Below, one piece after another: positions 26,383 through 54,630 of a stretch of DNA of 55,119 nt. This DNA comes from a virus. The stretch's first letter is position 1, and the number at the start of each line of letters is the position of its first letter. The translations under genes and the position numbers were made by a program. The stretch is from positions 1 to 55,119 of IMG/VR virus record IMGVR_UViG_3300045922_000467; one strand, given 5' to 3'. The notes beneath the pieces were generated by a model. The model was not told the origin of the DNA, ran no database searches, and saw only the letters and a list, made by a program, of their open reading frames with translations.

Positions 26383-29300
26383 GTGGCTGACCAGCTGACC
26401 ATTGCCAACCCCTTTCTGGCGATGCCGGGTATGTCCTCCGGTACCCCTGGTGTCGATCAGATATTTGGTCTGATGGACCAGCAGGCGGCGGTCAGTCAGC
26501 GGCAGCAGGCCGGGCTCCTCGTGGGTATCGCCAACGCACCGAGTCCGGCTGCGCCGCGCTGGGAGGCTGCCCCGGCACCGGCGTATTTCAACCCGGCCAC
26601 AAACCAACTGCGCCTTGGCGGGCGGGATATCGACGCAGACGATGCCCAGGCGACACTGGAGCTCGCCAACCAGCCCAACACGGAGCCTGTCGACGAGGGG
26701 TGGCAGGCGCTGTCCAGCCAGGACCTGGGGGTTCTCGTCGACTCGATTCGCAATCCTTCAACCGGGCGGCTGGTTCGCAAGAACTTCCGACTGGGGGCTG
26801 CTGGGCTCAAAGAGCTGTACGGCGCGGGGCTCGCCTACGTGGGGGCCGGGGAAGCCGGGCGTTCGATAATGGACAGCGCCAGGGAATCCCAGCGCCGACT
26901 GTCGCCATTCAACCGCAACCTCACCGACATCGGCTCATCGCCGGAGAAACGTCTCACCGATTGGTTCGTGGCCACTCTCGCCCAAGCCGGGCCCAGTATT
27001 TTGGAGAGCGTGGCGGCCGGTTTTGTCGGCGCTGGTGCGGGTCTTGCCGTTGGCGGCCCGGCGGCTTCAATCGGCGGTGCTATCGCCGGGGTATTCGGCA
27101 GGCCGGCGTTCAAAGCAGCGGTCATCAAGGCGGCTCGCAAGGAACTTGCTGGCGAAACACTGGACCAGGCCGAGAGACAGCTGCTCAAGAATGTAGCGGC
27201 GGTCAGCGCCGCAACGCTCAACACTGGCCGGGGTGCTGTGCCGCTGGCCACGATTAACCGCCAGGCGATGCTGCAGGGCATCAGTCGCACAGGACGCGAC
27301 CAGGCGCTGCTCGGCGGGGCTTTGGTTGGCAGCAGCCTGAACAGCTATCGCACCGGGGTTTCGGACGTCTACGCTAACCAGATCGAGCAGGGCACCGAGG
27401 ATCGCCTCATTGCTGGGGCATACGGCGTTCCCTATGCTGCCCTTGAGCTTCTCCCGGAAGGGGCTGCCGCGCTCAAGCTGCTGGGATATATAGGTCGGGG
27501 TTCTCAACAGGCCGGCAGGGCTGGCCTGCGCACCTATGCAGGTCGTGCTGCGAAAGGGGCCGCTATCGGGGCGGGTCTGGAGGGTGTCACCGAAGCTGGT
27601 CAGGAAGCCCTGGTTATGGGTGGAGCCGGGGAGGATATCCTCAGCGACGAAGGCGTTCTACGTCTCATCAACTCATTCGCCGCGGGTGCCGCGGTTGGCG
27701 CCCCGCTCGGCGCTGCTGCCAATCTTCGCGGGTACAACGAAGTTGATGCCCTTACAATGCGTAATTTGGGGTATGAGCCGTCACCGCCACCCGACTTGGA
27801 TATTTCCGTCGATTTGGCGGGCACACCATTTAATGACCCCAACTACCAAGTGCCCGCGCCGTCTGCACCCCCGGTGGTTCCTGGGGTGCCTCTGCAGCCG
27901 GTTTCGCCGACTCTTTTTGAGCGGGCCCAACAGATGGCTGCGGCGCCGACGCCCCCTGATTTTGGTGTCTTGTCGGCTGGCTATCGAGCAGCAGCACAGC
28001 CGGCAGTAGATTCTGCTGCACCCGCACCCGCAGCTGTGGCGCCCGCTGCTGCACCCGCACCCGCACCCGCACCCGCAACTGTGGCGCCCGCAGCTGTGGC
28101 GCCCGCTGCTGCACCTGCGAAGGCGCCTGCTAAGGGTAACAAGCTCAAGCGTGGCGCTGCGGCAGCTGCCACGCCGGCCGAACCTCCTGCTCAGCAGCCT
28201 GCGCCCGCACCCGCACCCGCACCCGCACCCGCACCCGCGCCCGCACCCGCACCCGCACCCGCAACTGTGGCGCCCGCAGCGGCGCCACCGCTTGCATCCG
28301 ACATTATGTCGGGCATCCTTGACCTGGACGGCGCAGCAGAAAGGGCCCCCAATATCTGGCAAATGATGCGCCGCCAGCTGGGTGAGGGTAAGGTGCCCGA
28401 GTGGAACACCCTGACCGAAGAGGAGCAGGACGATTTTACCGTAACGATTGCGGAGACCGAGCTCGATTCTAACGTGGCACCTATCGAGCAAGGTCGGGTG
28501 TATCGCGCCAAGGTTCAAGAGATTGTCAATGCTCGCCGGTCGGCGCCGAAGCCCGCAGCGACGCCCGCAGCGACGCCCGCAGCGACGCCCGCAGGCAAAG
28601 CTAAAGTGCAGGAAGCAGGTAAGGCGGCTGCGCCGAAGGCGGCTGCGCCGAAGCCCGCAGCGACGCCCGCAGGCAAAGCTAAAGTGCAGGAAGCAGGTAA
28701 GGCGGCTGCGCCGAAGCCCGCAGCGACGCCCGCAGCGACGCCCGCAGCGACGCCCGCAGCGACGCCCGCAGGCAAAGCCAAAGTGCAGGAAGCAGGTAAG
28801 GCGGCTGCGCCGAAGCCGGCAGCGACGCCCGCAAAGTCTCCAGAGGAAATAGAGGACACGTTGCGTAAGTCGGTTCGGCTCGAGGATAATGTGTCGGCAG
28901 AGGAGCGCGAGTATCAGCAACTAGCGGCGGATGCACTGATTAATGCTATTCTGAACAAGCAACCTATGCCGGAGAGGATGGCCGAAATTGACGCCGATCC
29001 GGAAAAGCAGCTAAACGCGCTGAGCGGGATTTACGGGCCTGACGTTGTCGGGATTTATCTCGGCATTCTACCAATAGATGTCGTAAATCCTCAGTGGGTA
29101 GCAACGCGGGGTTTTGTCGATCTGGAGGTTACCACAAACGGCGGCCTCCAAGTGCGCAAATGGGTGCGCAACGAAGCCGGCCGTCGCCGGTACATGGAGT
29201 TGCAGAAGCAACTCGGTAAGGAGGCGCCGGTCGAACCGGACCCCCCAAAAAACCCCGCGCCGGCGGCGGCGCCAAAGGCCGCTCCCTCAAAGCCGGTTGA

Positions 29301-32300
29301 TCCAGTAGCAACAGCCCGCGAGCAGTGGGCTCGGTCGATGCCGGAGCGGGTCGAGCTCGACTTCGACGAGGTCATAGCCGAGACCCGAGACAGGTGGGTC
29401 CGCTATGTCGAGGCCAACAACGGCAGGGTGACCGAGGAGCAGGCCGAAACATGGCTTTCGGCCAACGAAGAGGATGTTGTCGCGCCGATGCTCACTCGCA
29501 CGGCCAAGGAGGACGTCATCGACCTGATGGAAGATGCCGACTCGGTGGCAAACCGGGGGCAGTTCGCCAACCTGATTCCAGAGCTGGTAGCCACAGCGTT
29601 CTTCAATTCGGATGCCAATATCCGAGCTGAGGTCAACCGTCTGCGTGACTATCTAAAGTCGCTGCTCTCGGTGCCCGCCGACCGATGGAAGGTCGACATG
29701 ATCTCCCGGGAGATCATCCAGGAGATCAGCACCAACGCTCGCACAGCGCGATCCAAGGGCGTGACCGCGCCGTGGTGGCAATGGCTCAAGGACACCGGGT
29801 TCGACCAGGGCATCAAGGTTCTCACGATGCCGAGCGGGCTGACCGAGCAGGAGAAGGCCGGGTTTACCAAGGTTCAGAAACTCGACGACTCCGACGTTGT
29901 CAGCCAGGGCGGGCGCTTCCGGGTGGCGGACGGCAAGCCGGCGGAGCCTCTTCCCGTCGGGCGTTTGCGTATGGCGCTCAGCCGGTTTCTCTCCAGACTG
30001 CAGGTCAAGCCCAAGGTCATGGTCTATCGCAATCTGCTGGACTTCCAGCAGCGAAATCCAGGTCTCTATGCTCAGGCAGTCGCTGCGCGGCCGGAGGGTG
30101 ACTTCGCTGCGACTGCGGCAGCCGGGTACAGCTTCGGTCCGAACGTTATCATTTTCTCCGACAACATCATGTCGACGGATCATCTGAACGCAGTGCTGGC
30201 CCATGAAGCAATTGGCCACTTCGGGCTGCGCTCGATACTCGCCCCGGCGCAACTCCGCCAGGCTCTGGAGCGTGTATATCGTGGCGACGCGCGCATCCGC
30301 GCAATGGTGGACAACGCCGTAGAGACCACCGGAGTCAGCCGTCTGGAAGCCACTGAGGAAGTGCTGGCGGACATGGCTGCGGTAACGGATGTTTCGGTGA
30401 TCCGCCGGATCTGGAACGCTGTAAAATCGGCGCTCAACAAGCTGGGTGTGAAGTTCGGAGATGAGCACGCACGCTACCTGATCGGCCTCGCCCGCCGGTA
30501 TGTGCGCAACGGCAGCTCCGGTCACCTGATTTCTGGCGACTTCATGGTGCAGACGTTTGAACAGATGCAGGCCGAGGCGAGGGGAATGTTCTCCCGGGCC
30601 AGGCCGGTCGGAGATCTTGCGTCAATGGCGTTCGCTGCAGGCTCCTACAACTACGCATCGTCGAGACAGAAGGGGCTCCTCGGTGCGATAGAGGCCCTCC
30701 AGAACATCAAAGACCGTGGCGTTGATCTGAAATATGCGGCGGCGCGGGGTCTCGAAGCGGTACAAACCCTCGACCAGAAGGCGCGGCGCAGCGAAGGACT
30801 CAGCCTGGTTTTCGACCTGGTTCAGCGCCAGGCGGCGTTCGCCAGCACTCTCCTGAACAAGTATCAGGGGATGACCGACACAATGCACGGCAAGCCCGGA
30901 GACCTTCTCAACATAAACAGACTGCCGTCGAGCATTGAGCAGGAAAACGCTGGCCGCCTGCTGGCCTACGCTGCGCTGCACAAACAACGCACAGTGACCG
31001 AAACGCAGATGGCTAACACCGGCAAGCTGCTGGTTGTGACACCGAATGGCCAGGTCGAAATCGACCAGACCGTGCTGGCGGCGCTGCGCAAACTAGGCAC
31101 GGTGACCGCCGAAGATTTCCGGAGAGGGTTCGACATCGAGGTTACGGTGCCGGGCGAGGAGGGCGCACCGCAGACTTTGAAGCGCGACCGGTTCCAGTAT
31201 GACGTCGATGAACGTTCGATGGAGTGGAAGATATACCAGGAAACCCGCGCTGCCATCGAAGAGGCTGCAGTGGACAGCCTGATGGCTGAGGTCCAGGCCT
31301 ATAACACCGACGCGGCCAACCTGCTCGACCGGCTCAACCGCGGTCGCTCAGGGAGTTCTCTGTTCACCATGGAAGACCGCAATCGTCTCTGGAGCGTGAT
31401 CGAGATTTACAGGAATATCAAGGCTCAGAACTCAAAGCGGTCGGGGACTGCGATCACTTATGACAACAGGTCAATCGCCGAGGCCGAAGAGTTTCTGATT
31501 TCCTGGGGGCGCGCTCTGTTCAACACCGAGGTGTTCAAAGTGTGGGATAGAGACCCCAGCGCCAGCAAACAGCTTGTGGACGACCACGGCAAGTACCGCG
31601 CGGCTGAGTTCGATGAAGCCCGGGCCGCGCTCATCGAGCTGCGCAAGCGGACGATCGACAAAGATACTTCGTTCAAGATCCAGAACCGCATCCGCGACCT
31701 GAACATGAACCAGGACCTGCTGCAGTCTGGTGAGAACGCTGCCAAGCGGACGATTGCTACGGCCTATGTGCCGTTCTCGCGGCGCGGGGACTGGCGGGTT
31801 CGCCTGGTGGCCAAAAGCAAGGACGGCGATGTCGTCAGACTGCACCAAAGCTTCCGGGATCTGCTGCCCTACTACCACGTTGACAGTAACAGCACTGCGA
31901 TCGACATGGCCAGGCAGCTGGACGAAACGTTCGACGGTCAGGAGTTCGACGTGCTCACGGAAGACGGCGGGCGCATCACAGTGACCTTGCAGGCGGAGTA
32001 TGAGAGCAACCCGCGCAGCCCCAATCTCGAAACCTCAGTCAATTTCCGGGAGTTCATCTACGCCCTGCAGAAGATGGATATCAACGTCACTCCGGAGATG
32101 CGCGAAAAGATCATCGAAACGATGACCACCCTGGACGACCGGGCTCGCAAAAGCTTGCAGCGCACCGGCGTGCCGGGGTGGGACAAGAACGTCATCCGCT
32201 CGGCGTCCGAGCATCTCGAAACTTCGGCGCACGTCTCTGCCAAAAAACTGTACCGGGGGCAGATCGACGACATTCTGCTCAACAGCAAGCTGTGGCTAGG

Positions 32301-34209
32301 GGACGAAAAACGCCTGGAGAGCCTGGCAGCAGCTGTTCAGACGGCGCGCACGCCCGGAGCCCGTGCTGCTGCACAGCGCGCATACGAAGAATATGCATTC
32401 AAGTATCTCTATATGGCGCCGGGCGGCCGGACTGTGACGATCGCTGGCAAGGAGATGCAAACTCTTGGCCGCGGAGAGGATTACAAAGAGTATGCCAAAG
32501 AGCTGCTCCGCTGGTACTCGGAGACCACTAACATCCAGAACTCCGTGGAAGACTATCTGTCAGGCGAGACCAGTTCGCGCCTCAAGATGATGGCCGTGAT
32601 GATGCAGCTGGGGGGCGTCGTAGCCGCAGCAGCCGTCAACCTCAGTTCGCTTATCACCAACACCGTTCCGTTTCTCGCAACGCGGAACGAGGCGCGCGGG
32701 TTCGGGGGCGGCTTCGGGTTCGGCAACGCATCGACGGCGCTGTGGAAAGCTGGGGTGGACGTCGGCCACGCTCGGTTCCAAGACCAGAAGTTCCTGCAGA
32801 AAATGATGGCTGAGGGCAGCTGGGGTGACTACGGACTGACCCGGGCAGAGGCGGCATATCTATATGAAGCCACTTTGAATAACCGGCTGGGAGCAGCGCA
32901 GATGAACGCGCTGATTGGCACGTCGCGCGGCAAGGTGCAGAGCCCGAGAACTCAGGCTGCCATCCAGGCGTGGATGTCGATGTTCTCCTTCACAGAGCAG
33001 TATACCCGGAGAGTGACTGCCCTGGCGTCCTACCGGCTGCAGATGCAGAGACTCGTGGCGGAGAATGACGAGCTGGCTCAACCAGGGCTGTCAGCGCAGA
33101 GACGCGACCAGATCATGGAGGAGATCGAGAAACAGGCGGCCACGTTCGCCGATGAGGCGGTTATCTCGTCTCAGGGCGAATATGGCATGTTCAATCGGCC
33201 ATCGATGGCGCGCGGGAACATCCTCCAGTACGTGTTCATGTACAAGCAGTTTCTCATCACGACTGTGCAGCTCCTGCGTAACATGCCCCCGTCGGGACGG
33301 GCGTACGCCCTCGGAGTCCTGTTTCTTGCTTCCGGGCTCAAGGGCATCCCGTTCGCTGACGACTTCATGGATCTGCTGGACACCCTGCTGCAGAAGTTCG
33401 GGTTCAAGATCGGCGGCGTCGAGAAGGAAATCTCCGAGTTCGTTGACGCGGTGGCGCCCGGAGTTACTCCAGTTGTGATGAGGGGCTTCATCGACCAGTT
33501 CACGGGAGCCACGGTGTCGACCCGATTGGGCTTCGGTGACCTGGTCCCTCTCACAGGCGCTTTCCGTGCTGGTGCGGATCCGGCGCGCGAGATGCTCGAC
33601 TTCTCCGGGCCGGTGTTCGGCGGGCTTACCCAGCTGGTCGGCACCGGCGCGCAGACGCTGCAGTACGCGGCTGAGAGCGTCGGCCTGGCACCTAACCGGA
33701 TATCCTTGTCGGACATCGCCAGGCAGTCTCCTGTGGCTCTGGCGAGGGCCTTGGGCGACGCCTACGTGTTCACCGGCACCGGGAAGATTATCAACAACCG
33801 GAACCAGGTTGTGTCGGACGATGCGAGTGCCGGGGTAATCTTCGCGCGTGCTCTGGGCTTCTACCCCGCCGCGGCGACCCGGATCAACGATGTGATCCGG
33901 ATGAGCAAGCGCGCCACTGAGTACCAGCGGGAAATCACCGCAGGGTATACCGCTGCCTACATCAAAGCGGTGGTGACCGGAGACGACGATCTCCGCCAAG
34001 ACATCGTTGACGCAGTGGCGAAGTGGAACGAAGCAGCTGAGGGGACTGGTCTGGAGCTGCGGAACTTTGGCCGCACGGCAGCGAGGGCTGCCCGCGAAGC
34101 GCAGCGACCGGCAGCCGCGCGGTATCTCCGCACGACGCCGATCGGAATGCGCCCCGAGACCATGGAGCTGCTGCGGGCCTATGGCTTGGAGGATGAAATC
34201 GAGTTCTAA
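26383..34209 (+). CDS. giant polyvalent-type ejection protein with zinc-protease motif
   Basis: 2,608 aa, start GTG 26383. Residues 1-470 are rich in Gly and Ala with hydrophobic stretches; residues 510-830 are Pro-Ala low complexity, including near-identical DNA repeats (28,550-28,830). A HExxH motif, HEAIGH at residues 1274-1279, in LAHEAIGHFGL, is a metallopeptidase signature. The C-terminal 550 residues have a hydrophobic stretch (LGGVVAAAAVNLSSLITNTVPFL, about 2070) and a region (QGEYGMFNRPSMARGNILQYVFMYKQFLITTVQLL) of the kind found in phage large polyvalent proteins. Such proteins are injected with DNA and carry effector domains. It overlaps the convergent gene by four bases. Confidence 0.8.
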   Translation: MADQLTIANPFLAMPGMSSGTPGVDQIFGLMDQQAAVSQRQQAGLLVGIANAPSPAAPRWEAAPAPAYFNPATNQLRLGGRDIDADDAQATLELANQPNTEPVDEGWQALSSQDLGVLVDSIRNPSTGRLVRKNFRLGAAGLKELYGAGLAYVGAGEAGRSIMDSARESQRRLSPFNRNLTDIGSSPEKRLTDWFVATLAQAGPSILESVAAGFVGAGAGLAVGGPAASIGGAIAGVFGRPAFKAAVIKAARKELAGETLDQAERQLLKNVAAVSAATLNTGRGAVPLATINRQAMLQGISRTGRDQALLGGALVGSSLNSYRTGVSDVYANQIEQGTEDRLIAGAYGVPYAALELLPEGAAALKLLGYIGRGSQQAGRAGLRTYAGRAAKGAAIGAGLEGVTEAGQEALVMGGAGEDILSDEGVLRLINSFAAGAAVGAPLGAAANLRGYNEVDALTMRNLGYEPSPPPDLDISVDLAGTPFNDPNYQVPAPSAPPVVPGVPLQPVSPTLFERAQQMAAAPTPPDFGVLSAGYRAAAQPAVDSAAPAPAAVAPAAAPAPAPAPATVAPAAVAPAAAPAKAPAKGNKLKRGAAAAATPAEPPAQQPAPAPAPAPAPAPAPAPAPAPATVAPAAAPPLASDIMSGILDLDGAAERAPNIWQMMRRQLGEGKVPEWNTLTEEEQDDFTVTIAETELDSNVAPIEQGRVYRAKVQEIVNARRSAPKPAATPAATPAATPAGKAKVQEAGKAAAPKAAAPKPAATPAGKAKVQEAGKAAAPKPAATPAATPAATPAATPAGKAKVQEAGKAAAPKPAATPAKSPEEIEDTLRKSVRLEDNVSAEEREYQQLAADALINAILNKQPMPERMAEIDADPEKQLNALSGIYGPDVVGIYLGILPIDVVNPQWVATRGFVDLEVTTNGGLQVRKWVRNEAGRRRYMELQKQLGKEAPVEPDPPKNPAPAAAPKAAPSKPVDPVATAREQWARSMPERVELDFDEVIAETRDRWVRYVEANNGRVTEEQAETWLSANEEDVVAPMLTRTAKEDVIDLMEDADSVANRGQFANLIPELVATAFFNSDANIRAEVNRLRDYLKSLLSVPADRWKVDMISREIIQEISTNARTARSKGVTAPWWQWLKDTGFDQGIKVLTMPSGLTEQEKAGFTKVQKLDDSDVVSQGGRFRVADGKPAEPLPVGRLRMALSRFLSRLQVKPKVMVYRNLLDFQQRNPGLYAQAVAARPEGDFAATAAAGYSFGPNVIIFSDNIMSTDHLNAVLAHEAIGHFGLRSILAPAQLRQALERVYRGDARIRAMVDNAVETTGVSRLEATEEVLADMAAVTDVSVIRRIWNAVKSALNKLGVKFGDEHARYLIGLARRYVRNGSSGHLISGDFMVQTFEQMQAEARGMFSRARPVGDLASMAFAAGSYNYASSRQKGLLGAIEALQNIKDRGVDLKYAAARGLEAVQTLDQKARRSEGLSLVFDLVQRQAAFASTLLNKYQGMTDTMHGKPGDLLNINRLPSSIEQENAGRLLAYAALHKQRTVTETQMANTGKLLVVTPNGQVEIDQTVLAALRKLGTVTAEDFRRGFDIEVTVPGEEGAPQTLKRDRFQYDVDERSMEWKIYQETRAAIEEAAVDSLMAEVQAYNTDAANLLDRLNRGRSGSSLFTMEDRNRLWSVIEIYRNIKAQNSKRSGTAITYDNRSIAEAEEFLISWGRALFNTEVFKVWDRDPSASKQLVDDHGKYRAAEFDEARAALIELRKRTIDKDTSFKIQNRIRDLNMNQDLLQSGENAAKRTIATAYVPFSRRGDWRVRLVAKSKDGDVVRLHQSFRDLLPYYHVDSNSTAIDMARQLDETFDGQEFDVLTEDGGRITVTLQAEYESNPRSPNLETSVNFREFIYALQKMDINVTPEMREKIIETMTTLDDRARKSLQRTGVPGWDKNVIRSASEHLETSAHVSAKKLYRGQIDDILLNSKLWLGDEKRLESLAAAVQTARTPGARAAAQRAYEEYAFKYLYMAPGGRTVTIAGKEMQTLGRGEDYKEYAKELLRWYSETTNIQNSVEDYLSGETSSRLKMMAVMMQLGGVVAAAAVNLSSLITNTVPFLATRNEARGFGGGFGFGNASTALWKAGVDVGHARFQDQKFLQKMMAEGSWGDYGLTRAEAAYLYEATLNNRLGAAQMNALIGTSRGKVQSPRTQAAIQAWMSMFSFTEQYTRRVTALASYRLQMQRLVAENDELAQPGLSAQRRDQIMEEIEKQAATFADEAVISSQGEYGMFNRPSMARGNILQYVFMYKQFLITTVQLLRNMPPSGRAYALGVLFLASGLKGIPFADDFMDLLDTLLQKFGFKIGGVEKEISEFVDAVAPGVTPVVMRGFIDQFTGATVSTRLGFGDLVPLTGAFRAGADPAREMLDFSGPVFGGLTQLVGTGAQTLQYAAESVGLAPNRISLSDIARQSPVALARALGDAYVFTGTGKIINNRNQVVSDDASAGVIFARALGFYPAAATRINDVIRMSKRATEYQREITAGYTAAYIKAVVTGDDDLRQDIVDAVAKWNEAAEGTGLELRNFGRTAARAAREAQRPAAARYLRTTPIGMRPETMELLRAYGLEDEIEF

Positions 34210-46379: not shown

Positions 46380-47090
46380 TTACTCCTCCTCGATAACATC
46401 TTCATCTGGATTATACAGACGACTCTCCTCGACGGCTTCCGCTACAGCCTCGTCACTGGTTAGACGTTCATATTCGGCCTCCAGTTCCTTAAAGAAGTCC
46501 TTCATCATACTTCGCGCCCAGATGTTGAATGCTTCATTAAAACGGTCCATCCCGGCGTAATTCCAACTACCATTTTCATACTGTTTGAGGTATTCGTCAT
46601 GGAGACGAAGAGCAGCAAGCAAGTTCAGCGGCATCGCGGACACCACCTCCTCTTGTTCAACGTAGTACATGTAATTAAACTCAACACTGTGTGACACACT
46701 ATGCTCGTGGTAGTAGTTACTACCCCCTACACGGCGGGGCACGACACTCAGAGTAAACAACCTTGTCTTGAGTCCCGCCAATATGGCAGTTTTGTCTCCG
46801 TCGGTAAGTGGAGACCCTGAAATCGTATGCAGCATATCCAGGAAGGCGTCTAAATCAACGCCTTCTTCGGGTTCGATCTCTCCGCAAAACTCGAAGCTTG
46901 CACCGCTGCCCTGTATGTAGAACCCGGTCCACATAGGGTAACTCACTGATAAGCACCTAAAGATACCAAATGTATCTGATGCCATCCGCGTCTTGAAATC
47001 GTCCCAGATACACTCGAACCAAAACTCTGATTCGACATTTATGTACCTGTACTTGTCGATGATGCACTGGGGTATATTTCCAGTAGTCAT
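46380..47090 (-). CDS. hypothetical protein of the low-GC cassette, 236 aa; phage family sometimes labelled antitoxin
   Basis: The pattern IPQCIIDKYRYINVE-FWFECIWDDFKTRM, then WTGFYIQGSGASFEFCGEI and SNYYHEHSVSHSVEF, matches a phage protein family that I recall as often labelled antitoxin of a toxin-antitoxin stability system, with little evidence. The C-terminal tail (EAVAEAVEESRLYNPDEDVIEEE) is very acidic. It starts at ATG 47090 behind GGAGG. No toxin gene of a known type is next to it. Its true function is unknown. Confidence 0.65.
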   Translation of the reverse strand: MTTGNIPQCIIDKYRYINVESEFWFECIWDDFKTRMASDTFGIFRCLSVSYPMWTGFYIQGSGASFEFCGEIEPEEGVDLDAFLDMLHTISGSPLTDGDKTAILAGLKTRLFTLSVVPRRVGGSNYYHEHSVSHSVEFNYMYYVEQEEVVSAMPLNLLAALRLHDEYLKQYENGSWNYAGMDRFNEAFNIWARSMMKDFFKELEAEYERLTSDEAVAEAVEESRLYNPDEDVIEEE

Positions 47091-48147: not shown

Positions 48148-49329
48148 TTACATCTTGATGACTTCGCCCCACGGCGCTTGGTCAGCGCCGTTGCTCACCC
48201 AGAGCGTGGGGTATGGTGTCGGCACGCCGAAGTCGCTGCAGTAGAGGTCGGTGAGAAAAACACAGGCAACCGGTTCAATGTCCTTGTCTTCAAGAAACCT
48301 GAACACCGGAGAGAACGCCGTTCCTCCGCCACCGTGTGGCTTGATAACCAACTCGTCATCCGGCAGGAACACGTCGTGGTGGGCCACCTCACTGTCGAAG
48401 TAAACGACATGCAGCTCGACCGGACGGCAGTCCTGGTGGGCGGCCTTCACCTCGGCCGCAAACTCATTGAGGATCTTCTCGCTGATGGATCCGGAGCAGT
48501 CCACAGCAAACACGACAGGTCCCATCTGCTCACCATTCCGGCTGGCAGCGTAGATCCCCTGCGACGCAAAGCGACGGTTTGGGCGGGAGTAGGACCGCTC
48601 ATCGGTCTTCGCCTTGACGAGGAAGTTCCGAAGAACTTCTCGCCAATCCAGCTTGGGGTCGAGGATTTCCCCGACGAGACGCTGCAAGCCGGCGGAGAGC
48701 TTGCCTGCCATCTTGGCCGCCTGAGCAGCCTGAGCAGCCCGGATCTTCCACTCACCAGCCTGTTCCTCCTGCTCAGCGGGAGACCCCTCTGCATCGAACA
48801 GAACGTCCAGAGGATCCCCGCGGCCGTCGCCGTAGTCTGAGGGCAGCAGGTTGTAGATGTTGTCGGTGATACCATCGCCGGCCTTGAACAGGCTGTTATC
48901 CAACAGCGCACCCTCGGGCATCCTGCCGATTTTCTCTTCGGTCAAGTGCTGATTGATGACATAGTCACCAGCGGCGTTCCACTTCCTGGGATCGCGACCG
49001 TGACGCCGGTAGCAGTGATCCATCATGGGGTGCATACACTCATGCGCCATGACAAACTGGAGTTCGGCGTCGGTCAAACTGTCCAGAAACTCACGGTTCC
49101 ACACCACCCACTTGCCGTTGGTCCCAGCCGTCGACACTTCATCACCAACCAGATAGTGGGGCATGGACAGCGCGAGGTATCCAAAGAACGGATTGTGCAT
49201 CACGAGTTGGGCCTTGGCTTTCGATATCCGCTGCATCAGGACGCTGTCACTGGGGATCCGGGTTCCGCCAGTGCGGGACCCGGTGTGGTCGGGGGAGTAG
49301 GGGGAGTTCGGAATGCTTGGGACGGTCAT
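48148..49329 (-). CDS. VWA protein with metallopeptidase-like domain
   Basis: 393 aa. The N-terminal half resembles the DUF2201 metallopeptidase-type domain: HECMHPMMDH at residues 96-105 is a zinc HExxHxxxxH. The C-terminal half is a von Willebrand A domain with MIDAS residues Asp277, Ser279 and Ser281 (DCSGS), then a GGGGTAF segment with the third MIDAS Thr and a LTDLYC. Such proteins pair with MoxR ATPases, which here lies at 51843-52838. ATG 49329 was chosen over a GTG six bases upstream because GGAGAAGTGACA fits it. Confidence 0.9.
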   Translation of the reverse strand: MTVPSIPNSPYSPDHTGSRTGGTRIPSDSVLMQRISKAKAQLVMHNPFFGYLALSMPHYLVGDEVSTAGTNGKWVVWNREFLDSLTDAELQFVMAHECMHPMMDHCYRRHGRDPRKWNAAGDYVINQHLTEEKIGRMPEGALLDNSLFKAGDGITDNIYNLLPSDYGDGRGDPLDVLFDAEGSPAEQEEQAGEWKIRAAQAAQAAKMAGKLSAGLQRLVGEILDPKLDWREVLRNFLVKAKTDERSYSRPNRRFASQGIYAASRNGEQMGPVVFAVDCSGSISEKILNEFAAEVKAAHQDCRPVELHVVYFDSEVAHHDVFLPDDELVIKPHGGGGTAFSPVFRFLEDKDIEPVACVFLTDLYCSDFGVPTPYPTLWVSNGADQAPWGEVIKM

Positions 49330-49331
49330 TG

Positions 49332-49841
49332 TCACTTCTCCTCAGGTGTGATGTTGTTGAGAAAATCGGAGACTCTCGGGGCTTCGGGGTTAACCGGATG
49401 TTCGATGCGGCGGATAATTTCGAACTGCTCCTGTAGCGCCCATGATAAGTAGACGATGTCGGGGGTGCCGTTTTCCGGGGCATCATCCGGATAAGGTGGT
49501 TCCGTGCAGGTGTGCTCCACGTCGTCGATATTTTCGCCGATCCGAACGAACACCGTGGGAAACCCGGCCTCCTCGGCAAAGTGCAGGAGCTTGTTAGAAG
49601 CCTGCACATCCAGATAGCCTTCGTACCATTTGACGCTCTCCCAAAAGGCAGTCAGCATGACGCCCTTCGCGATCTGGCCCCCGAGGCCCGCCTTGTAGTC
49701 GATATCTTGCACCCCGTAGTGGTCGTTCATTTCATGGACGACATCGGTCTCACCACTGAGTGTCAGCTTCGCCATGAACTTGACCAAGTCCTCGGCGCGG
49801 AGAAACCCGATGCCGATCGCCACATCAGATCGATACCCCAT
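49332..49841 (-). CDS. MGYRSDV-type phage protein, 169 aa
   Basis: The start MGYRSDVAIGIGF is the hallmark of a widespread phage family of unknown function. Residues 25-65 (LSGETDVVHEMNDHYGVQDIDYKAG) and 100-125 (GFPTVFVRIGENIDDVEH) form a mixed fold without catalytic motif. The start at 49841 has AGGAGGT upstream; a longer frame has no support. It lies directly beside the VWA gene, whose stop-start spacing is two bases. Confidence 0.7.
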   Translation of the reverse strand: MGYRSDVAIGIGFLRAEDLVKFMAKLTLSGETDVVHEMNDHYGVQDIDYKAGLGGQIAKGVMLTAFWESVKWYEGYLDVQASNKLLHFAEEAGFPTVFVRIGENIDDVEHTCTEPPYPDDAPENGTPDIVYLSWALQEQFEIIRRIEHPVNPEAPRVSDFLNNITPEEK

Positions 49842-49869
49842 GTTAGTTACCTCCTCTAATTCATCGAGA

Positions 49870-50250
49870 TCACAGAAGCGGCGGTTGGCTGTTGTCGCCA
49901 TCCGAGTCGGTTGCCAGACAGAGTACCTCGATGGTGTCGCTGCCCGTGATCTGGGTGACAGAGTTGCCAGCGCCCCAGATGTTGACCAGATACGACGACA
50001 GCGCCGCTCGAACCCGATCAGCATCAAACGGGGCGGTGTTCACGACACGGACTTCACCGGGCTGCATTCCCTGGATCTGCGGCCTGTAGACGGCGGCCAG
50101 CTCTCCGGACTTGGCCCTTGGGGACTTCACATGGTGGGTGAACTCCCCTTCCATCAGCGGCTCTCCCTCGGGGGGGACGATCATGAACTGACATTTGAGA
50201 TTGCGGAGTTGCATCGCGATCTGCGTGATCGCTCGGGTGCGGATATTCAT
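49870..50250 (-). CDS. hypothetical protein of the MoxR/VWA group, 126 aa
   Basis: I do not recognise it. It has beta strands (LKCQFMIVPPEG, GEVRVVNTAPF, TIEVLCLATDSDGD) with a basic N-terminus. The ATG at 50250 is preceded by GGAGAACAGTG; a GTG three bases earlier is also possible. It sits between the 169-aa gene and the DUF3150-like gene. Confidence 0.65.
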   Translation of the reverse strand: MNIRTRAITQIAMQLRNLKCQFMIVPPEGEPLMEGEFTHHVKSPRAKSGELAAVYRPQIQGMQPGEVRVVNTAPFDADRVRAALSSYLVNIWGAGNSVTQITGSDTIEVLCLATDSDGDNSQPPLL

Positions 50251-50267
50251 CACTGTTCTCCCTTGGG

Positions 50268-51122
50268 TTAGGCGGCTGCCATGAACGGAGCCATGGCATC
50301 CAGGATTGCCTGCGCATCATCGGCCACCGATTGGCGAACCGTCGTGTAGTCACGCAGGGTCTGCGGATCGCAGATCAGTTTGTCCTCAACCTCGCGGCGC
50401 ATCGCTTCCAGGTTGGGGTCGTCGGTCAAGTTAAGTCGGGGAAGCAGATCGATCAGCTCAGCGATGTTCTCGACGAGGCTGTTCCGGAACTGGGCTTCGG
50501 GGTCCTTGAGACGTTCTGCCATCTTGGAGACCCGGTCATAGAGACGCTTCCACACATCGCGAACGGCGAGGGCCTGCGCCTCAGCGACCTGCTCCGTGAT
50601 CTGCTTCTGGATGCGCTCCATCTGCTCCGACGAGAGATGCACCCGGAAGTCCTGCGCCGAAGGAACCGGCAACACGGTCATGGTGATCCTGAACCGCCGG
50701 CGAATGTCGGTGACATCGGGGTAGTCCTCGCTCTTGAACATCGCTCCAAGCGTGTTCTGCGCTTCATGAACGAGACGGGGGTATTCGTGGACAAACCGAT
50801 CAACGAGGTTCTCCCACTCCGACTTGTGGAGGTCAAACTGCCGGGTAAACTCCAGAAAGTTTGCAGTCGGCAAGATCATCTGACCGTCCATGCCCCACGG
50901 GAGGGTCTGTTCGTAGAACCAGGTCCGGATGGCAGATGTCTTGGAGACGACGTCCCGGAGATAGTCGTTGGCCGGAAGCAGCGACTTGTTGTAGCGACCG
51001 ACCGTCTCATCGACGTTCTTGCTGCGGGCAACCTCCTTGGACACTTCCCGGTCAAACCGCCGTGCCGTCCACTGGCTGATGCCGAGGTGAACAAGCACCG
51101 CACGTTCATTGAGCTGAACCAT
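50268..51122 (-). CDS. DUF3150-like protein of the MoxR/VWA group
   Basis: 284 aa. It resembles DUF3150, a mostly helical phage and bacterial family found with MoxR and VWA genes. The N-terminal LVHLGISQWTARRFDREVSKEVARSKNVD and the central RRRFRITMTVLPVPSAQDFRVHLSSEQMERIQKQITEQVAEAQALAVRDVWKRLYDRVSKMAERL are charged and helical. No enzyme motif is visible. It may bridge the ATPase and VWA partner. ATG 51122 follows AGGAGAGAGAAA. Confidence 0.7.
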   Translation of the reverse strand: MVQLNERAVLVHLGISQWTARRFDREVSKEVARSKNVDETVGRYNKSLLPANDYLRDVVSKTSAIRTWFYEQTLPWGMDGQMILPTANFLEFTRQFDLHKSEWENLVDRFVHEYPRLVHEAQNTLGAMFKSEDYPDVTDIRRRFRITMTVLPVPSAQDFRVHLSSEQMERIQKQITEQVAEAQALAVRDVWKRLYDRVSKMAERLKDPEAQFRNSLVENIAELIDLLPRLNLTDDPNLEAMRREVEDKLICDPQTLRDYTTVRQSVADDAQAILDAMAPFMAAA

Positions 51123-51170
51123 TTTCTCTCTCCTCTCTGTGGTTAACTGTTGAACCCGAAAAACCGAATG

Positions 51171-51359
51171 TCAGTCATCCCCTCGCGTCCTCTCGATGAC
51201 GGCTCCCAGGGGTATCTGACACCACAACGCCGCCACCGTGATGACGGCAAAGATGATGGCCAGCGGGGTGTCGTTCATCCACACCAAGGCGTAGATCTCG
51301 CACCCCGCCGTGGTCAATGCGAACACCGCCAGCCAGAACTTCAAGAAATACAGCAGCAT
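51171..51359 (-). CDS. two-helix membrane protein, 62 aa
   Basis: I do not recognise it. Residues 1-22 (MLLYFLKFWLAVFALTTAGCEI) and 28-50 (NDTPLAIIFAVITVAALWCQIPL) are hydrophobic, giving two transmembrane helices with a short loop and a charged tail. The start ATG 51359 follows GGAGAACCTC. It lies within the MoxR/VWA group, so it may give that system a membrane anchor; this is only position-based. Confidence 0.65.
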   Translation of the reverse strand: MLLYFLKFWLAVFALTTAGCEIYALVWMNDTPLAIIFAVITVAALWCQIPLGAVIERTRGDD

Positions 51360-51389
51360 GAGGTTCTCCTTCCTGTTCATCCCACCCTC

Positions 51390-51770
51390 CTAGAATTGGC
51401 TGGAAAACTCGACGCACCCGAGGTCGTCGATATCTTCGAGATAGCCGCCGAACGCGGTCAGCGCCCCGGTCTCCATGTCGAGAACCACAACCCCGGCGTC
51501 GCCGTGGGAGAAATGCCCAAGGTCGACCGGATCCAGACTGTCCGGACCCTCAATAAGGCCCATCGACAGGGTGCCGGGTCTCGCAGCATGGATCACCCCG
51601 CATATCCGGGCCGAAGCATAGGACGCATCTCCGCGCCTCATGAACTTGCCGGCATCCTTGAGGAGCGGGATCACATCCCCTCCCAACCAGTGGAAATAGA
51701 TCGCCGCGAAAAACGGCTTCCTGGTTTTGTTGTTGGTCTCGGTGAGAACGACGATCACACGGTCACCCAT
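51390..51770 (-). CDS. hypothetical protein of the MoxR/VWA group, 126 aa
   Basis: I do not recognise it. The start MGDRVIVVLTETNNK at 51770 is supported by AGGAGAGTGTGAT. It has mixed beta (KPFFAAIYFHWLGGDVIPLL, DAGVVVLDMETGALTAFGGYLEDIDDLG) and an acidic C-terminus. Confidence 0.65.
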   Translation of the reverse strand: MGDRVIVVLTETNNKTRKPFFAAIYFHWLGGDVIPLLKDAGKFMRRGDASYASARICGVIHAARPGTLSMGLIEGPDSLDPVDLGHFSHGDAGVVVLDMETGALTAFGGYLEDIDDLGCVEFSSQF

Positions 51771-51842
51771 ATCACACTCTCCTGGCTCATCAGGCAGCGG
51801 GAGGAACCCCGCCACGACACCGGGTTTCCCCGGTGTTTCGCC

Positions 51843-52838
51843 TCACCACAACAGGTTCCCGTTCTTCATGGCGAACTGGGCGAACGCCGACGTGTCACAG
51901 AGCGACTGGTCCCGCCGAACTGCCATGGAGACGGTGAGAACGGTGAACTCTCCCGGCATTCGCTCACCGTATCGCAGGATGCTGCCCAAGTTCTGCTGGG
52001 TAACACGGGCCGCCAGAGCCCCGGACAGGGCGTAGAGCGTCGCCGGGTCATCCGGAACCGGGCTGTTGTCCGGGTCAAGAATGATCCGGTCGATGTTGGG
52101 GAGCTTGTTGACGATCCTCATGAACCCGAGGAACTCGGCGGCAGCCCCCTCACCAATGGACCCGGAGTAGAACTCCATCTCGAATGCAGGGTCGATCTTC
52201 CCGATGAACGGGGCGACGCCCTCCGACCACGAACGACACGTCGGGTTCACTTCCCGCTGTGGGTCGAAGTCGTTCAGAAGGGCCGGCCTGTATCGGAAGA
52301 ACGACACCAGCGACGTCGGGACGTTGTTTGCCAATGCCCAGCTGGACCAATCGTCGAGATGCACATCGAGCGTCACCACGGTCTCACGGTTCCGCAGATG
52401 CGACAGCACCTTGTTGGACCCTGCTCGGTCAGACACCCGGTTCCCGGTCGAGATCACTCGCCAGCCGTCAGCCAGAGGAACACCGTGGAGGGTCCTTGCC
52501 TGGCAGATGTTGGCCATGACTTTCTGCAGATCGGGTGAACACTGGTTGCGGTCATCGAACAACAGGATGCCGCCCCTCTCGGTCCCGGGCTTCCCCTGGT
52601 AGGGGAACCACTCCGGCATCTTGTATCCGAAACTCGTGTCGCTGGTCATCATGTCGGGGACACCGAAATCCTCGACGACCATCGTCGGCATGTGCCGGGT
52701 GATGACGGGGATCCCCATCTCCTGGCCGGCCTCCTCCACGAGGGAGGTCTTGCCGACACCCGGCGGCCCCTCGATGCAGAGGGTGCGGAGGGAGGGGTGG
52801 GTATCAACGATCAGTTTCTTGAGGTTGGCGGGTCGCAT
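51843..52838 (-). CDS. MoxR-family AAA+ ATPase
   Basis: 331 aa. It is an AAA+ ATPase of the MoxR class, likely a chaperone-like motor for the VWA partner. Walker A is GPPGVGKT at 24-31; Walker B is GILLFDD at about 90-96, where the usual Glu (DE) is Asp96; sensor 1 is VISTGNRVSD; an arginine finger region is in VLSHLRNRE. ATG 52838 follows GGAGAACTGAAT. The Glu-to-Asp change may slow hydrolysis. It lies about 2.5 kb upstream of the VWA gene in the same transcript. Confidence 0.9.
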   Translation of the reverse strand: MRPANLKKLIVDTHPSLRTLCIEGPPGVGKTSLVEEAGQEMGIPVITRHMPTMVVEDFGVPDMMTSDTSFGYKMPEWFPYQGKPGTERGGILLFDDRNQCSPDLQKVMANICQARTLHGVPLADGWRVISTGNRVSDRAGSNKVLSHLRNRETVVTLDVHLDDWSSWALANNVPTSLVSFFRYRPALLNDFDPQREVNPTCRSWSEGVAPFIGKIDPAFEMEFYSGSIGEGAAAEFLGFMRIVNKLPNIDRIILDPDNSPVPDDPATLYALSGALAARVTQQNLGSILRYGERMPGEFTVLTVSMAVRRDQSLCDTSAFAQFAMKNGNLLW

Positions 52839-52840
52839 AT

Positions 52841-53047
52841 TCAGTTCTCCTGGGAGTTGTCTGCGAACGGCTTCCGACCAAACTCCCGATGGTCAGGGCC
52901 GAGGTGAACCACGATCTCGTCACCAGTGAGTGACCGCAGGGCATCACGGGACGCCTTGGCTTCGGTCTTGGCGGCAAAATAGTGGCGCTGACCGTTCACA
53001 AGGTAGCTCCTTGTGGTGCGGTCATACAGCTGGAACAGGCGTCTCAT
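52841..53047 (-). CDS. hypothetical small protein, 68 aa
   Basis: I do not recognise it. The ATG 53047 overlaps the preceding stop (ATGA), so the start is firm. It is basic in its first half (RTTRSYLVNGQRHYFAAKTEAKASRDALRSL), followed by a conserved-looking GDEIVVHLGPDH. It lies upstream of the MoxR gene. Confidence 0.65.
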   Translation of the reverse strand: MRRLFQLYDRTTRSYLVNGQRHYFAAKTEAKASRDALRSLTGDEIVVHLGPDHREFGRKPFADNSQEN

Positions 53048-53331
53048 GGCATCACCACCGGATGGTCGACCTGACAGAGGGCCACCTCAGCTTCAATAGT
53101 CGCCACACGGTAGGTTACCTCTCCAGAGGACCCATACTGGCTGAGCCTCACGAAAAGACACCCACGTTCAACGGCAGTGAAGGTCTGGTCGTGCAGATAC
53201 CACACCGGAACCCGGAAACCGGGGGCACCACTGGCAGGGCAGCAGTGAATTGATTCACCACAATACCTCAGCCAAGCATTGACGGTTCCGGGGACAGGGT
53301 ATTCCCCGGTGTAGATTTTCTTCGTCCTCAT
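53044..53331 (-). CDS. hypothetical protein, 95 aa
   Basis: I do not recognise it. It is beta-rich with several Cys (YCGESIHCCPASG, GCLFVRLSQYGSSGEV). The start at 53331 is backed by AAGGAGTGACCGCC. It is the second gene of the leftward block. Confidence 0.65.
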   Translation of the reverse strand: MRTKKIYTGEYPVPGTVNAWLRYCGESIHCCPASGAPGFRVPVWYLHDQTFTAVERGCLFVRLSQYGSSGEVTYRVATIEAEVALCQVDHPVVMP

Positions 53332-53353
53332 GGCGGTCACTCCTTGGTTGGGG

Positions 53354-53698
53354 TCAGGCGAAGGGCCGGCCATGCCGGGCAGAGGGGTTCAGCGACGGAC
53401 CCTTTCTGGGGTCCAGAGCAACCAGGGTGTAGGAGTCCCGGTTGTACTGGATCCGAATATGGGTGAACCCATACTGCCGCAACGTGGGGCGGTCGTTCAT
53501 GGTGACGAAACTCCCGCAGAAGATGTCGTCGAGAGCGACATGCTCATGGCCGACGACAAAATCATAGACGGCGTCCTCAGGAGAGAGATACCGGTTGTAA
53601 CGGGGTCTCACAGTGAGAGCCTTATACCGGCCCTCATTCGAGAGGTCGTGCCAGTGGCGGCCGAGATCACGGAAGCTATTATATGTGGTTGCCTTCAT
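53354..53698 (-). CDS. first gene of the leftward block, hypothetical, 114 aa
   Basis: I do not recognise it. The ATG 53698 follows GGAGGTATACACCT, in which the Shine-Dalgarno overlaps a GTATAC site, so a protein bound there could block translation initiation. The product has a basic N-terminal half (YNSFRDLGRHWHDLSNEGRYKALTVRPRYNRYLS), a central LSPEDAVYDFVVGHEHVALDDIF and a C-terminal beta strand. It starts about 79 bases after the predicted promoter start. Confidence 0.7.
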   Translation of the reverse strand: MKATTYNSFRDLGRHWHDLSNEGRYKALTVRPRYNRYLSPEDAVYDFVVGHEHVALDDIFCGSFVTMNDRPTLRQYGFTHIRIQYNRDSYTLVALDPRKGPSLNPSARHGRPFA

Positions 53699-53720
53699 AG
53701 GTGTATACCTCCAGCTGTGA

Positions 53721-53744
53721 GTGTATACGATTAGTCGTATACAC
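53721..53744. promoter_or_regulatory. 24-bp perfect palindromic operator
   Basis: GTGTATACGA and its exact complement TCGTATACAC flank the centre TTAG. It lies between the promoter start (about 53,777) and the first gene's ribosome site, at roughly +33 to +56 of the leftward transcript. A third GTATAC (53703-53708) overlaps the ribosome site. It has the shape of a repressor operator or an RNA hairpin that hides the start. Confidence 0.85.
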
Positions 53745-53783
53745 CAGAGTGTAACCACCACTCCAGGGGTGTGGCGGACGGCC

Positions 53784-53813
53784 ATTGTAGCACCGCCCGC
53801 CGGCGGCTGTCAA
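53784..53813 (-). promoter_or_regulatory. near-consensus sigma70 promoter of the leftward block
   Basis: On the minus strand TTGACA (53813-53808), an 18-base spacer and TACAAT (53789-53784). The -35 box is perfect and the -10 has one mismatch. Transcription should begin near 53,777 and run leftward through the MoxR/VWA and replication genes. The match to host sigma70 consensus argues that host RNA polymerase reads these genes. Confidence 0.85.
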
Positions 53814-54630
53814 CCCTGGGGGGTAGGGGGGCGGGGCGATTTGGCGGCGGCACGAGGATATGTATACACGTTTTCGGTGTTAGGAGGGGGGTTCTGGATA
53901 GTAACGTATACAAATACGGGGGTTTTTGAATACTCCTACACGTTTTTTGACCCCCTATTTGTATACTTTCGTGTTACATTTGTATTCAATTTTTGTATCC
54001 GTTTATGAGAAATCAAGGACTTGCGCGGAAAAAACTATCAAACGTTACACTATCTGGTGAAAATCTAGGGGCGCTGGATTTCACGGGGCTGCGGGGCTGT
54101 ATACGTATACTGTATACGTATACTGTATTCAGTTTACATTTGGGTCCCCCTATATAGTGTATAAAAAAATGTATACACATATAGTTGATAAAAATGAGAC
54201 CTCGAAACCAGGTTAGGAGTTACAACCTAACCCCATGGTTTTATTGCGCTTTCGCCCCAAATGGATACACTTTTTGAATACAAGTAATACAGTTTTTGTA
54301 TACAAATGTAAACAACGAGCTTGTTTCGTTTTGTGCGCTGCACAATAGTCTCAAACCGGACCTACCGTCTGTAAGACGCTGATTTTCCCAGATATTTTTT
54401 AGCGCTACAGTTTGATAGCAACGTATACAAATGTAAACAGTCAACGATTATAAGGACTTGCGCCGAGGGCCCCGGGTGTTGCGGTGCAGCATGACCAGGG
54501 GGCAATGACCCCCCGAGCCAATACTTCTAGGATATCAGGTGCTTAGGGGCGGCGGACCCGGGTGTCGCGTGCCATGACCCCCCGACGAATAGGAGGAGCG
54601 CAGCGACGGAACCGCGCGCCCGCGTCCGCA
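53814..54630. other. AT-rich control region with GTATAC array, no clear gene
   Basis: No credible gene fits. It contains ten of the thirteen GTATAC sites of the cluster (53862, 53906, 53961, 54099, 54105, 54112, 54118, 54171, 54298, 54423). Two tandem 13-base TGTATACGTATAC units are at 54098-54123. A 17-base direct repeat GTATACAAATGTAAACA is at 54298-54314 and 54423-54439, and a 12-base repeat AAGGACTTGCGC is at 54015-54026 and 54452-54463. An inverted repeat GGTTAGG/CCTAACC is at 54211-54232. Two CGGGGGGTCAT motifs (54505, 54574) lie near the right end. It is AT-rich against a GC-rich genome and holds iteron-like repeats, so it is a candidate origin or control region. Confidence 0.7.

Follow-up and report, generated by a model that had tools for sequence, protein, structure and literature searches.

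Couples of a MoxR-type AAA+ ATPase and a von Willebrand factor A (VWA) protein have been described in bacteria and in viruses. In NorQ/NorD, a MoxR hexamer grips its VWA partner and hydrolysis of ATP distorts the linker of the latter (PMC9976466, PMC13036017), cryo-electron microscopy of NorQD showing the VWA finger in the ring pore and the C-terminus on the post-sensor-1 loop (PMC13036017). Ternary MoxR-vWA systems, with VMAP and iSTAND proteins, act in biological conflict (Kaur et al. 2020, PMC7159879). Among viruses, a MoxR-vWA(metallopeptidase) pair of the group 2.2 jumbo phages has been proposed to combine chaperone and processing functions in virion assembly (Iyer et al. 2021, PMC7824862, where a reported role of the MoxR/VWA couple of Acidianus two-tailed virus, ATV, in tail development is also cited), and gp24/gp25 of N4, expressed from middle transcripts, are among the 14 core genes of the N4-like phages (Schitoviridae), with unknown function (PMC4193335); indeed, no paper that we found assigns a function to these two core genes. 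The present analysis concerns a three-gene form of such a couple, in which the genes of a MoxR-like ATPase, of a DUF3150-like protein and of a VWA protein bearing a domain of metallopeptidase type lie together in the IMG/VR virus record IMGVR_UViG_3300045922_000467. The window is the whole of this record, 55,119 bases, without terminal repeats.

The plus strand of the window carries podovirus-type genes (terminase, T7-like portal, head protein and a 2608-residue protein), and the minus strand those of a family A DNA polymerase, a helicase, an exonuclease and a primase/helicase. The genes moxR, DUF3150-like and vwa lie at the head of this minus-strand, non-structural arm. In the following, window genes are named by their lower coordinate (p52841 etc.) and the loci of relatives by L-numbers (L005, L063, L250 etc.). 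The three large genes are:

51843..52838, minus strand: MoxR-like AAA+ ATPase, 331 residues (Pfam PF07728 AAA_5, 28.6 bits, cut-off 22)
50268..51122, minus strand: DUF3150-like helical protein, 284 residues (PF11348, 20.9 bits, short of its cut-off of 24.9)
48148..49335, minus strand: VWA protein, 395 residues (PF13203 DUF2201_N metallopeptidase, 157.4 bits, cut-off 23.2; PF09967, 78.8 bits, cut-off 26.4)

The trio is kept in every informative relative, far above chance. Searching IMG/VR with the VWA protein as query yielded 80 relatives, the best segments being 52-61% identical; 79 of the 80 encode a DUF3150-like protein upstream of vwa and 71 encode MoxR, and where one is missing the locus is at a contig end. 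As the system itself had served to select these relatives, co-occurrence was retested with two other anchors, namely the DNA polymerase, scanned for with an alignment, and the DUF3150-like protein. In the polymerase-anchored loci with enough upstream sequence, moxR, DUF3150 and vwa follow each other in order in 21/21 cases; in the DUF3150-anchored loci moxR is found upstream in 54/54 and vwa downstream in 75/75, counts which are not independent events as the anchor sets share contigs and ancestry. A preliminary description of this DNA had proposed gene-neighbourhood analysis as a check on the system, and co-conservation of the three large genes is what that check returned. Identities to the window have medians of 56% for both MoxR and VWA, 48% for DUF3150 and 39% for the DNA polymerase. 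The more distant polymerase relatives KPP25 and Rollin carry no trio in the stretch examined.

Co-conservation without exception makes it very likely that the three large proteins belong to a common machine, and they probably form a complex. As to its task, it is plausible, though somewhat short of probable, that the trio is one ATP-driven remodelling machine, likely serving the element's own complexes and not attacking a host target. Service to own complexes is moderately favoured over host takeover because of the universal, slow-evolving presence of the trio and of the setting that it shares on plasmids. The early takeover function put forward in the preliminary description is thus retained as one reading only, universal, strongly purified and catalytically intact conservation looking more like that of core machinery.

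The MoxR ATPase, which also matches PHROG 1297 (E 4e-61) and finds its best PDB profile matches in the AAA modules of midasin, is confirmed as such by a Pfam score above cut-off. Its motifs comprise Walker A GPPGVGKT, Walker B LLFDDR (within LLFDDRNQ) and sensor-1 N133, whereas R151 and R202 are, judging from their position, probably the Arg finger and the sensor-2 residue, respectively. The MoxR and VWA proteins were each aligned across 12 divergent members, drawn from this clade, from three plasmid trios, from the phages N4, Erwinia S6 and Thermus phiFa, from one Planktothrix and one Rhizobium phage and from pSYSA, and K30, D95, N133, R151 and R202 are invariant throughout, N4 gp24 and the TM3_14A protein included. 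The second acidic residue of Walker B, to which the preliminary description had drawn attention, does read D in the window, but it is fixed as D in 57/57 members of the clade and is also D in two Burkholderiales plasmid MoxR proteins, the other aligned members having E. A DD Walker B is present in DnaA/DnaC-type AAA+ proteins as well. The idea that it marks an inactive or special ATPase was rejected, given its fixation in the clade, its recurrence on plasmids and the intact state of the remaining ATPase residues. MoxR genes adjoin or lie near VWA genes not only in the clade but also in N4, S6, phiFa, TM3_14A, phage G, PA5oct and Pag-Yong1.

The VWA protein is likewise confirmed in its two-domain make-up, both Pfam families scoring above their cut-offs. 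The N-terminal DUF2201_N domain is minigluzincin-like, with the HExxHxxxxH motif in the form HECMHPMMDH (residues 98/99/102/107), and the C-terminal VWA domain has a complete metal ion-dependent adhesion site (MIDAS; D279, S281, S283, T339 and D363). H98, E99, H102, H107 and all five MIDAS residues are invariant in the 12 divergent members, N4 gp25 included. In the AlphaFold2 model (mean predicted local distance difference test score, pLDDT, 82) the VWA fold spans residues 271-395, and this part matches many solved VWA domains with Z about 11-12 and a root-mean-square deviation (rmsd) of 2.3-3 over some 125 residues; for the N-terminal part the closest likeness, weak by profile and by fold alike, is the minigluzincin selecase MJ1213. 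With the active-site residues intact, the protein may be an active peptidase. The phage VWA proteins share a conserved (F/W)GEVV-like C-terminal tail, and none of the relatives aligned has an effector domain on its VWA protein. PHROG 1314 and GenBank label this family, N4 gp25 included, 'HNH endonuclease', a name that the conserved residues do not support; the present analysis removes this misleading label.

Insertion of a metal or cofactor, of the kind known from NorQ/NorD and CobS/CobT, is a further reading, in which the HExxH...H domain would bind a metal and pass it on to one of the element's enzymes. The best-studied MoxR-VWA couples do insert metals, and invariant histidines would bind a metal whether catalytic or not; yet E99, the catalytic glutamate, shows no variation either, as would be expected of a peptidase, and neither on phages nor on plasmids could a conserved metalloenzyme gene be made out next to the trio, making metal delivery quite improbable. 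The extra domain being zincin-like, with an invariant catalytic glutamate, the machine probably couples remodelling to cleavage.

For the third protein, the helical, DUF3150-like assignment of the preliminary description stands. PF11348 scores below the Pfam gathering cut-off, which is why the protein is labelled 'DUF3150-like' and no more, and the profile reaches E 0.01 in only 9/29 relatives; on the other hand, homology to DUF3150-annotated proteins is clear from tblastn (E 8e-37 to a plasmid protein annotated DUF3150, H99) and from the best viral fold match, also annotated DUF3150 (E 2e-19), and plasmid homologues are 32-39% identical over the full length. The AlphaFold2 model has pLDDT 81 and a predicted template modelling score of 0.52. 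Compared with solved structures, none stands out: the matches, in residues 183-283, are generic helical bundles (Z ≤10.3, rmsd 2.4 over 96 residues), and for this reason nothing is concluded on the fold.

The distribution of the three families differs. Among 50,697 phage records, relatives of MoxR are found in 454, of VWA in 578 and of DUF3150 in 4. All seven isolates with a VWA gene that were inspected have MoxR upstream within about 5 kb, and in six of the seven DUF3150 is absent between the two. Profile-profile comparison disclosed no hidden DUF3150 in the pair-only phages phiFa, TM3_14A, phage G and PA5oct, and in N4 and S6 none lies between the pair, as judged by gene layout. Being present in one lineage of the couples and absent in another, DUF3150 is best read as an adaptor or scaffold. 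In the Planktothrix phage Pag-Yong1 a gene annotated AcrVA2 (L083:10048-11088) lies two genes downstream of VWA; a link was rejected as no homologue occurs in the other loci.

Outside phages, a DUF3150 relative is found in 41 plasmid records, the three genes being present in those inspected. Burkholderiales plasmid trios (e.g. NZ_CP062805, NZ_CP139167, NZ_CP071828) are often directly upstream of an operon for a VirB-type type IV secretion system (T4SS), and in eight Burkholderiales loci VirB11 and VirB4 are encoded just downstream of the VWA gene. The trio is also found on nine bacterial genome contigs, with the gene order unchanged in eight. The corresponding loci are:

L250-L254, L256-L259, L265-L268: plasmid and bacterial-contig trios

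On Burkholderiales plasmids, a 500-residue protein of unknown family is encoded upstream of moxR (L265:3868-5370) and is about 30% conserved in eight other loci. The couple known from N4 is present throughout an environmental podovirus group, here together with a third partner that is obligate, and on plasmids it stands beside conjugation operons. That plasmids, which have no virions, carry the same trio argues against a chaperone/protease dedicated to virion assembly, as put forward by Iyer et al. for jumbo phages and reported for ATV. Two points are in keeping with that proposal, a second structural module near the gp24/gp25 homologues of phage RPP1 (PMC4193335) and a mass-spectrometry note in the record of the PA5oct MoxR; with the trio lying in the replication arm and N4 gp24/gp25 being middle and not late genes, such a role has, in our estimate, little likelihood. 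A bolder reading, which we regard as unlikely, is a hitherto undescribed assembly of a MoxR ring, a DUF3150 adaptor and a VWA-coupled peptidase that phages and conjugative plasmids exchange with one another and that would remodel or cleave a specific host target soon after DNA entry, helping the element to establish itself.

In the window, the minus-strand genes from p53354 to p47119 (53,698 down to 47,119) are arranged head to tail with gaps of -4 to 48 nucleotides, forming one operon where the preliminary description has one transcript. Its main promoter just upstream has a candidate in one good site:

53784..53813, minus strand: promoter-like site TTGACA-18-TACAAT with extended -10, matching the consensus at 11/12 positions, about 90 bp upstream of the operon

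Promoter-like sites in the region are overall near chance, though, in number (7 versus 5.1 expected). From gene position, the operon would be expressed early. A 0.7-kb or so AT-rich intergenic stretch upstream of the operon (53703-54428) holds 13 of the 22 GTATAC palindromes of the window, for the whole of which 3.0 are expected; they are possibly operator or origin repeats.

Several points speak for a host takeover, in which early synthesis of the machine would lead to the unfolding, inactivation or cleavage of host proteins such as factors of transcription, metabolism or defence: the trio heads a non-structural operon behind a good promoter-like site, the N4 pair is in middle transcripts, close DUF3150-bearing copies are found mostly on phages and plasmids, and the ternary systems of Kaur et al. 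offer an analogy in biological conflict. Such host takeover is nevertheless rather unlikely, as typical takeover and counter-defence genes are patchy, unlike the universal and slow-evolving trio, host shutdown would be unusual for conjugative plasmids, and no host partner is known. Of the PADLOC defence models, those matched by MoxR (MkoA/IetA) are matched weakly and through bare P-loops, and none matches VWA or DUF3150.

The tight set with a membrane partner and several small unknowns, as envisaged in the preliminary description, did not hold. Most of the small operon genes have no detectable homologues in the relatives, and a single one travels with the trio: among the 54 relatives whose sequence reaches far enough upstream, 47 have its family, in each case ahead of moxR, while on plasmids no homologue was found within the loci searched. 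The small and neighbouring genes considered are:

52841..53047, minus strand: 68-residue protein p52841, 2 nucleotides upstream of moxR (family hidden Markov model match to the window, E 8e-10)
51171..51380, minus strand: two-helix membrane open reading frame (ORF), 69 residues with two hydrophobic stretches, in the operon by position but outside the conserved system
46380..47090, minus strand: p46380, PHROG 5162 family protein of 236 residues, a loosely associated accessory gene

The membrane ORF does exist as described, but four profile-search rounds gave zero homologues in the 80 relatives for it and for p51390, p53044, p47119 and p45466, and homologues in 3, 5 and 6 relatives for p53354, p49870 and p49332, respectively. 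The membrane ORF and the remaining small operon genes were rejected as subunits for want of conservation. Other small ORFs with a hydrophobic stretch, from two families with 14-15 loci each, precede moxR in some relatives; these searches show no relation to the small ORFs of the window. The p46380 family occurs in 21/54 relatives and also beside the trio in the Pseudovibrio axinellae locus L258.

Between vwa and polA, several relatives have genes that the window does not. About 25/71 (e.g. L063:4634-5116) carry a 160-residue ORF, the start of which, MTVIVWDGETLATDRQ, resembles by eye a proteasome-type N-terminal nucleophile hydrolase, with no match in Pfam or NCBIfam; 53/71 (e.g. L005:7437-7919) encode a DUF6378 protein with a helix-turn-helix-like N-terminus; and families of 225 residues (65/71) and 265 residues (53/71) are also missing from the window. 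On its plus strand, the 2608-residue protein (26383-34209), the C-terminal part of which is related to PHROG 11358 (unknown function), is probably an internal virion protein. No near-identical phage was found in the isolate collection.

How a remodelling machine serving the element's own complexes may work can be sketched by analogy. MoxR would form a ring, on which the VWA protein would dock through its MIDAS-bearing VWA domain, as NorD does on NorQ, the (F/W)GEVV-like tail being compatible with NorD-type docking; the DUF3150-like protein, as adaptor or scaffold, would set the substrate. The order of action among the three proteins is one that we infer. The job would be to remodel, and probably to trim by proteolysis, large complexes of the element itself in the early or middle phase, candidate substrates being replication or injection/virion-precursor complexes in phages and the conjugation apparatus in plasmids.

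A number of points weigh against this proposal. The trio belongs to the minus-strand arm of non-structural genes, ahead of the DNA polymerase and away from the plus-strand virion genes; the pair-only phages do without DUF3150, so that the pair gives no clue to what this protein does; and the plasmid copies L082, L087, L088 and L268 have no adjoining T4SS. By itself, conservation does not tell whether the target is a complex of the element or a host target that is invariant. The literature yielded no physical or genetic data on any trio member. The mass-spectrometry note in the PA5oct MoxR record speaks for the proposal, but what it refers to could not be checked. A CRISPRi-ART study using N4 was consulted on the gp24/gp25 pair, and the passages found concern rII genes only.

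The novelty claimed in the preliminary description needs to be divided: the MoxR-VWA(metallopeptidase) pair had already been reported (PMC7824862), but our literature search found no description of the three-gene MoxR-DUF3150-VWA form, of its invariance in a podovirus group or of its sharing with T4SS plasmids, all of which are, as far as found, new; in the library searched, DUF3150 and MoxR occur together in no listed paper. The system is narrowed to three or four proteins, and its function becomes testable in the laboratory phage N4 on Escherichia coli K-12.

Among the known systems, NorQ/NorD (Paracoccus), RavA/ViaA (Escherichia coli) and CobS/CobT share with the trio a MoxR ring, a VWA co-chaperone partner and an intact MIDAS; their known targets are host enzymes and, unlike here, they are not known to have a DUF2201_N peptidase domain. 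The ternary systems of Kaur et al. likewise add a third conserved protein to a MoxR-vWA couple, VMAP or iSTAND, where the trio has a DUF3150-like one; they bear variable effector domains on vWA and are tied to multicellular bacteria, whereas no such domain is seen on the aligned VWA proteins and the trio is on phages and plasmids. The couple of ATV, an archaeal virus, is viral as is the present one, but is without the peptidase domain. Nearer to the trio, the pair of the group 2.2 jumbo phages (the PA5oct copy included) consists of the same two families, VWA being fused to the N-terminal metallopeptidase, although in PA5oct no DUF3150 protein was found between the genes. The Burkholderiales plasmid trios have the same three families in the same order, some with a DD Walker B in MoxR, and differ in standing often beside a VirB T4SS and in lacking, in the loci searched, the 68-residue gene. 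N4 gp24/gp25, finally, are adjacent MoxR and VWA/DUF2201 genes in which the ATPase, MIDAS and HExxH...H residues all align with those of the window, at 22-27% identity, with DE instead of DD in Walker B and a gap of 167 nucleotides between gp24 and gp25 where the window has its DUF3150-like gene.

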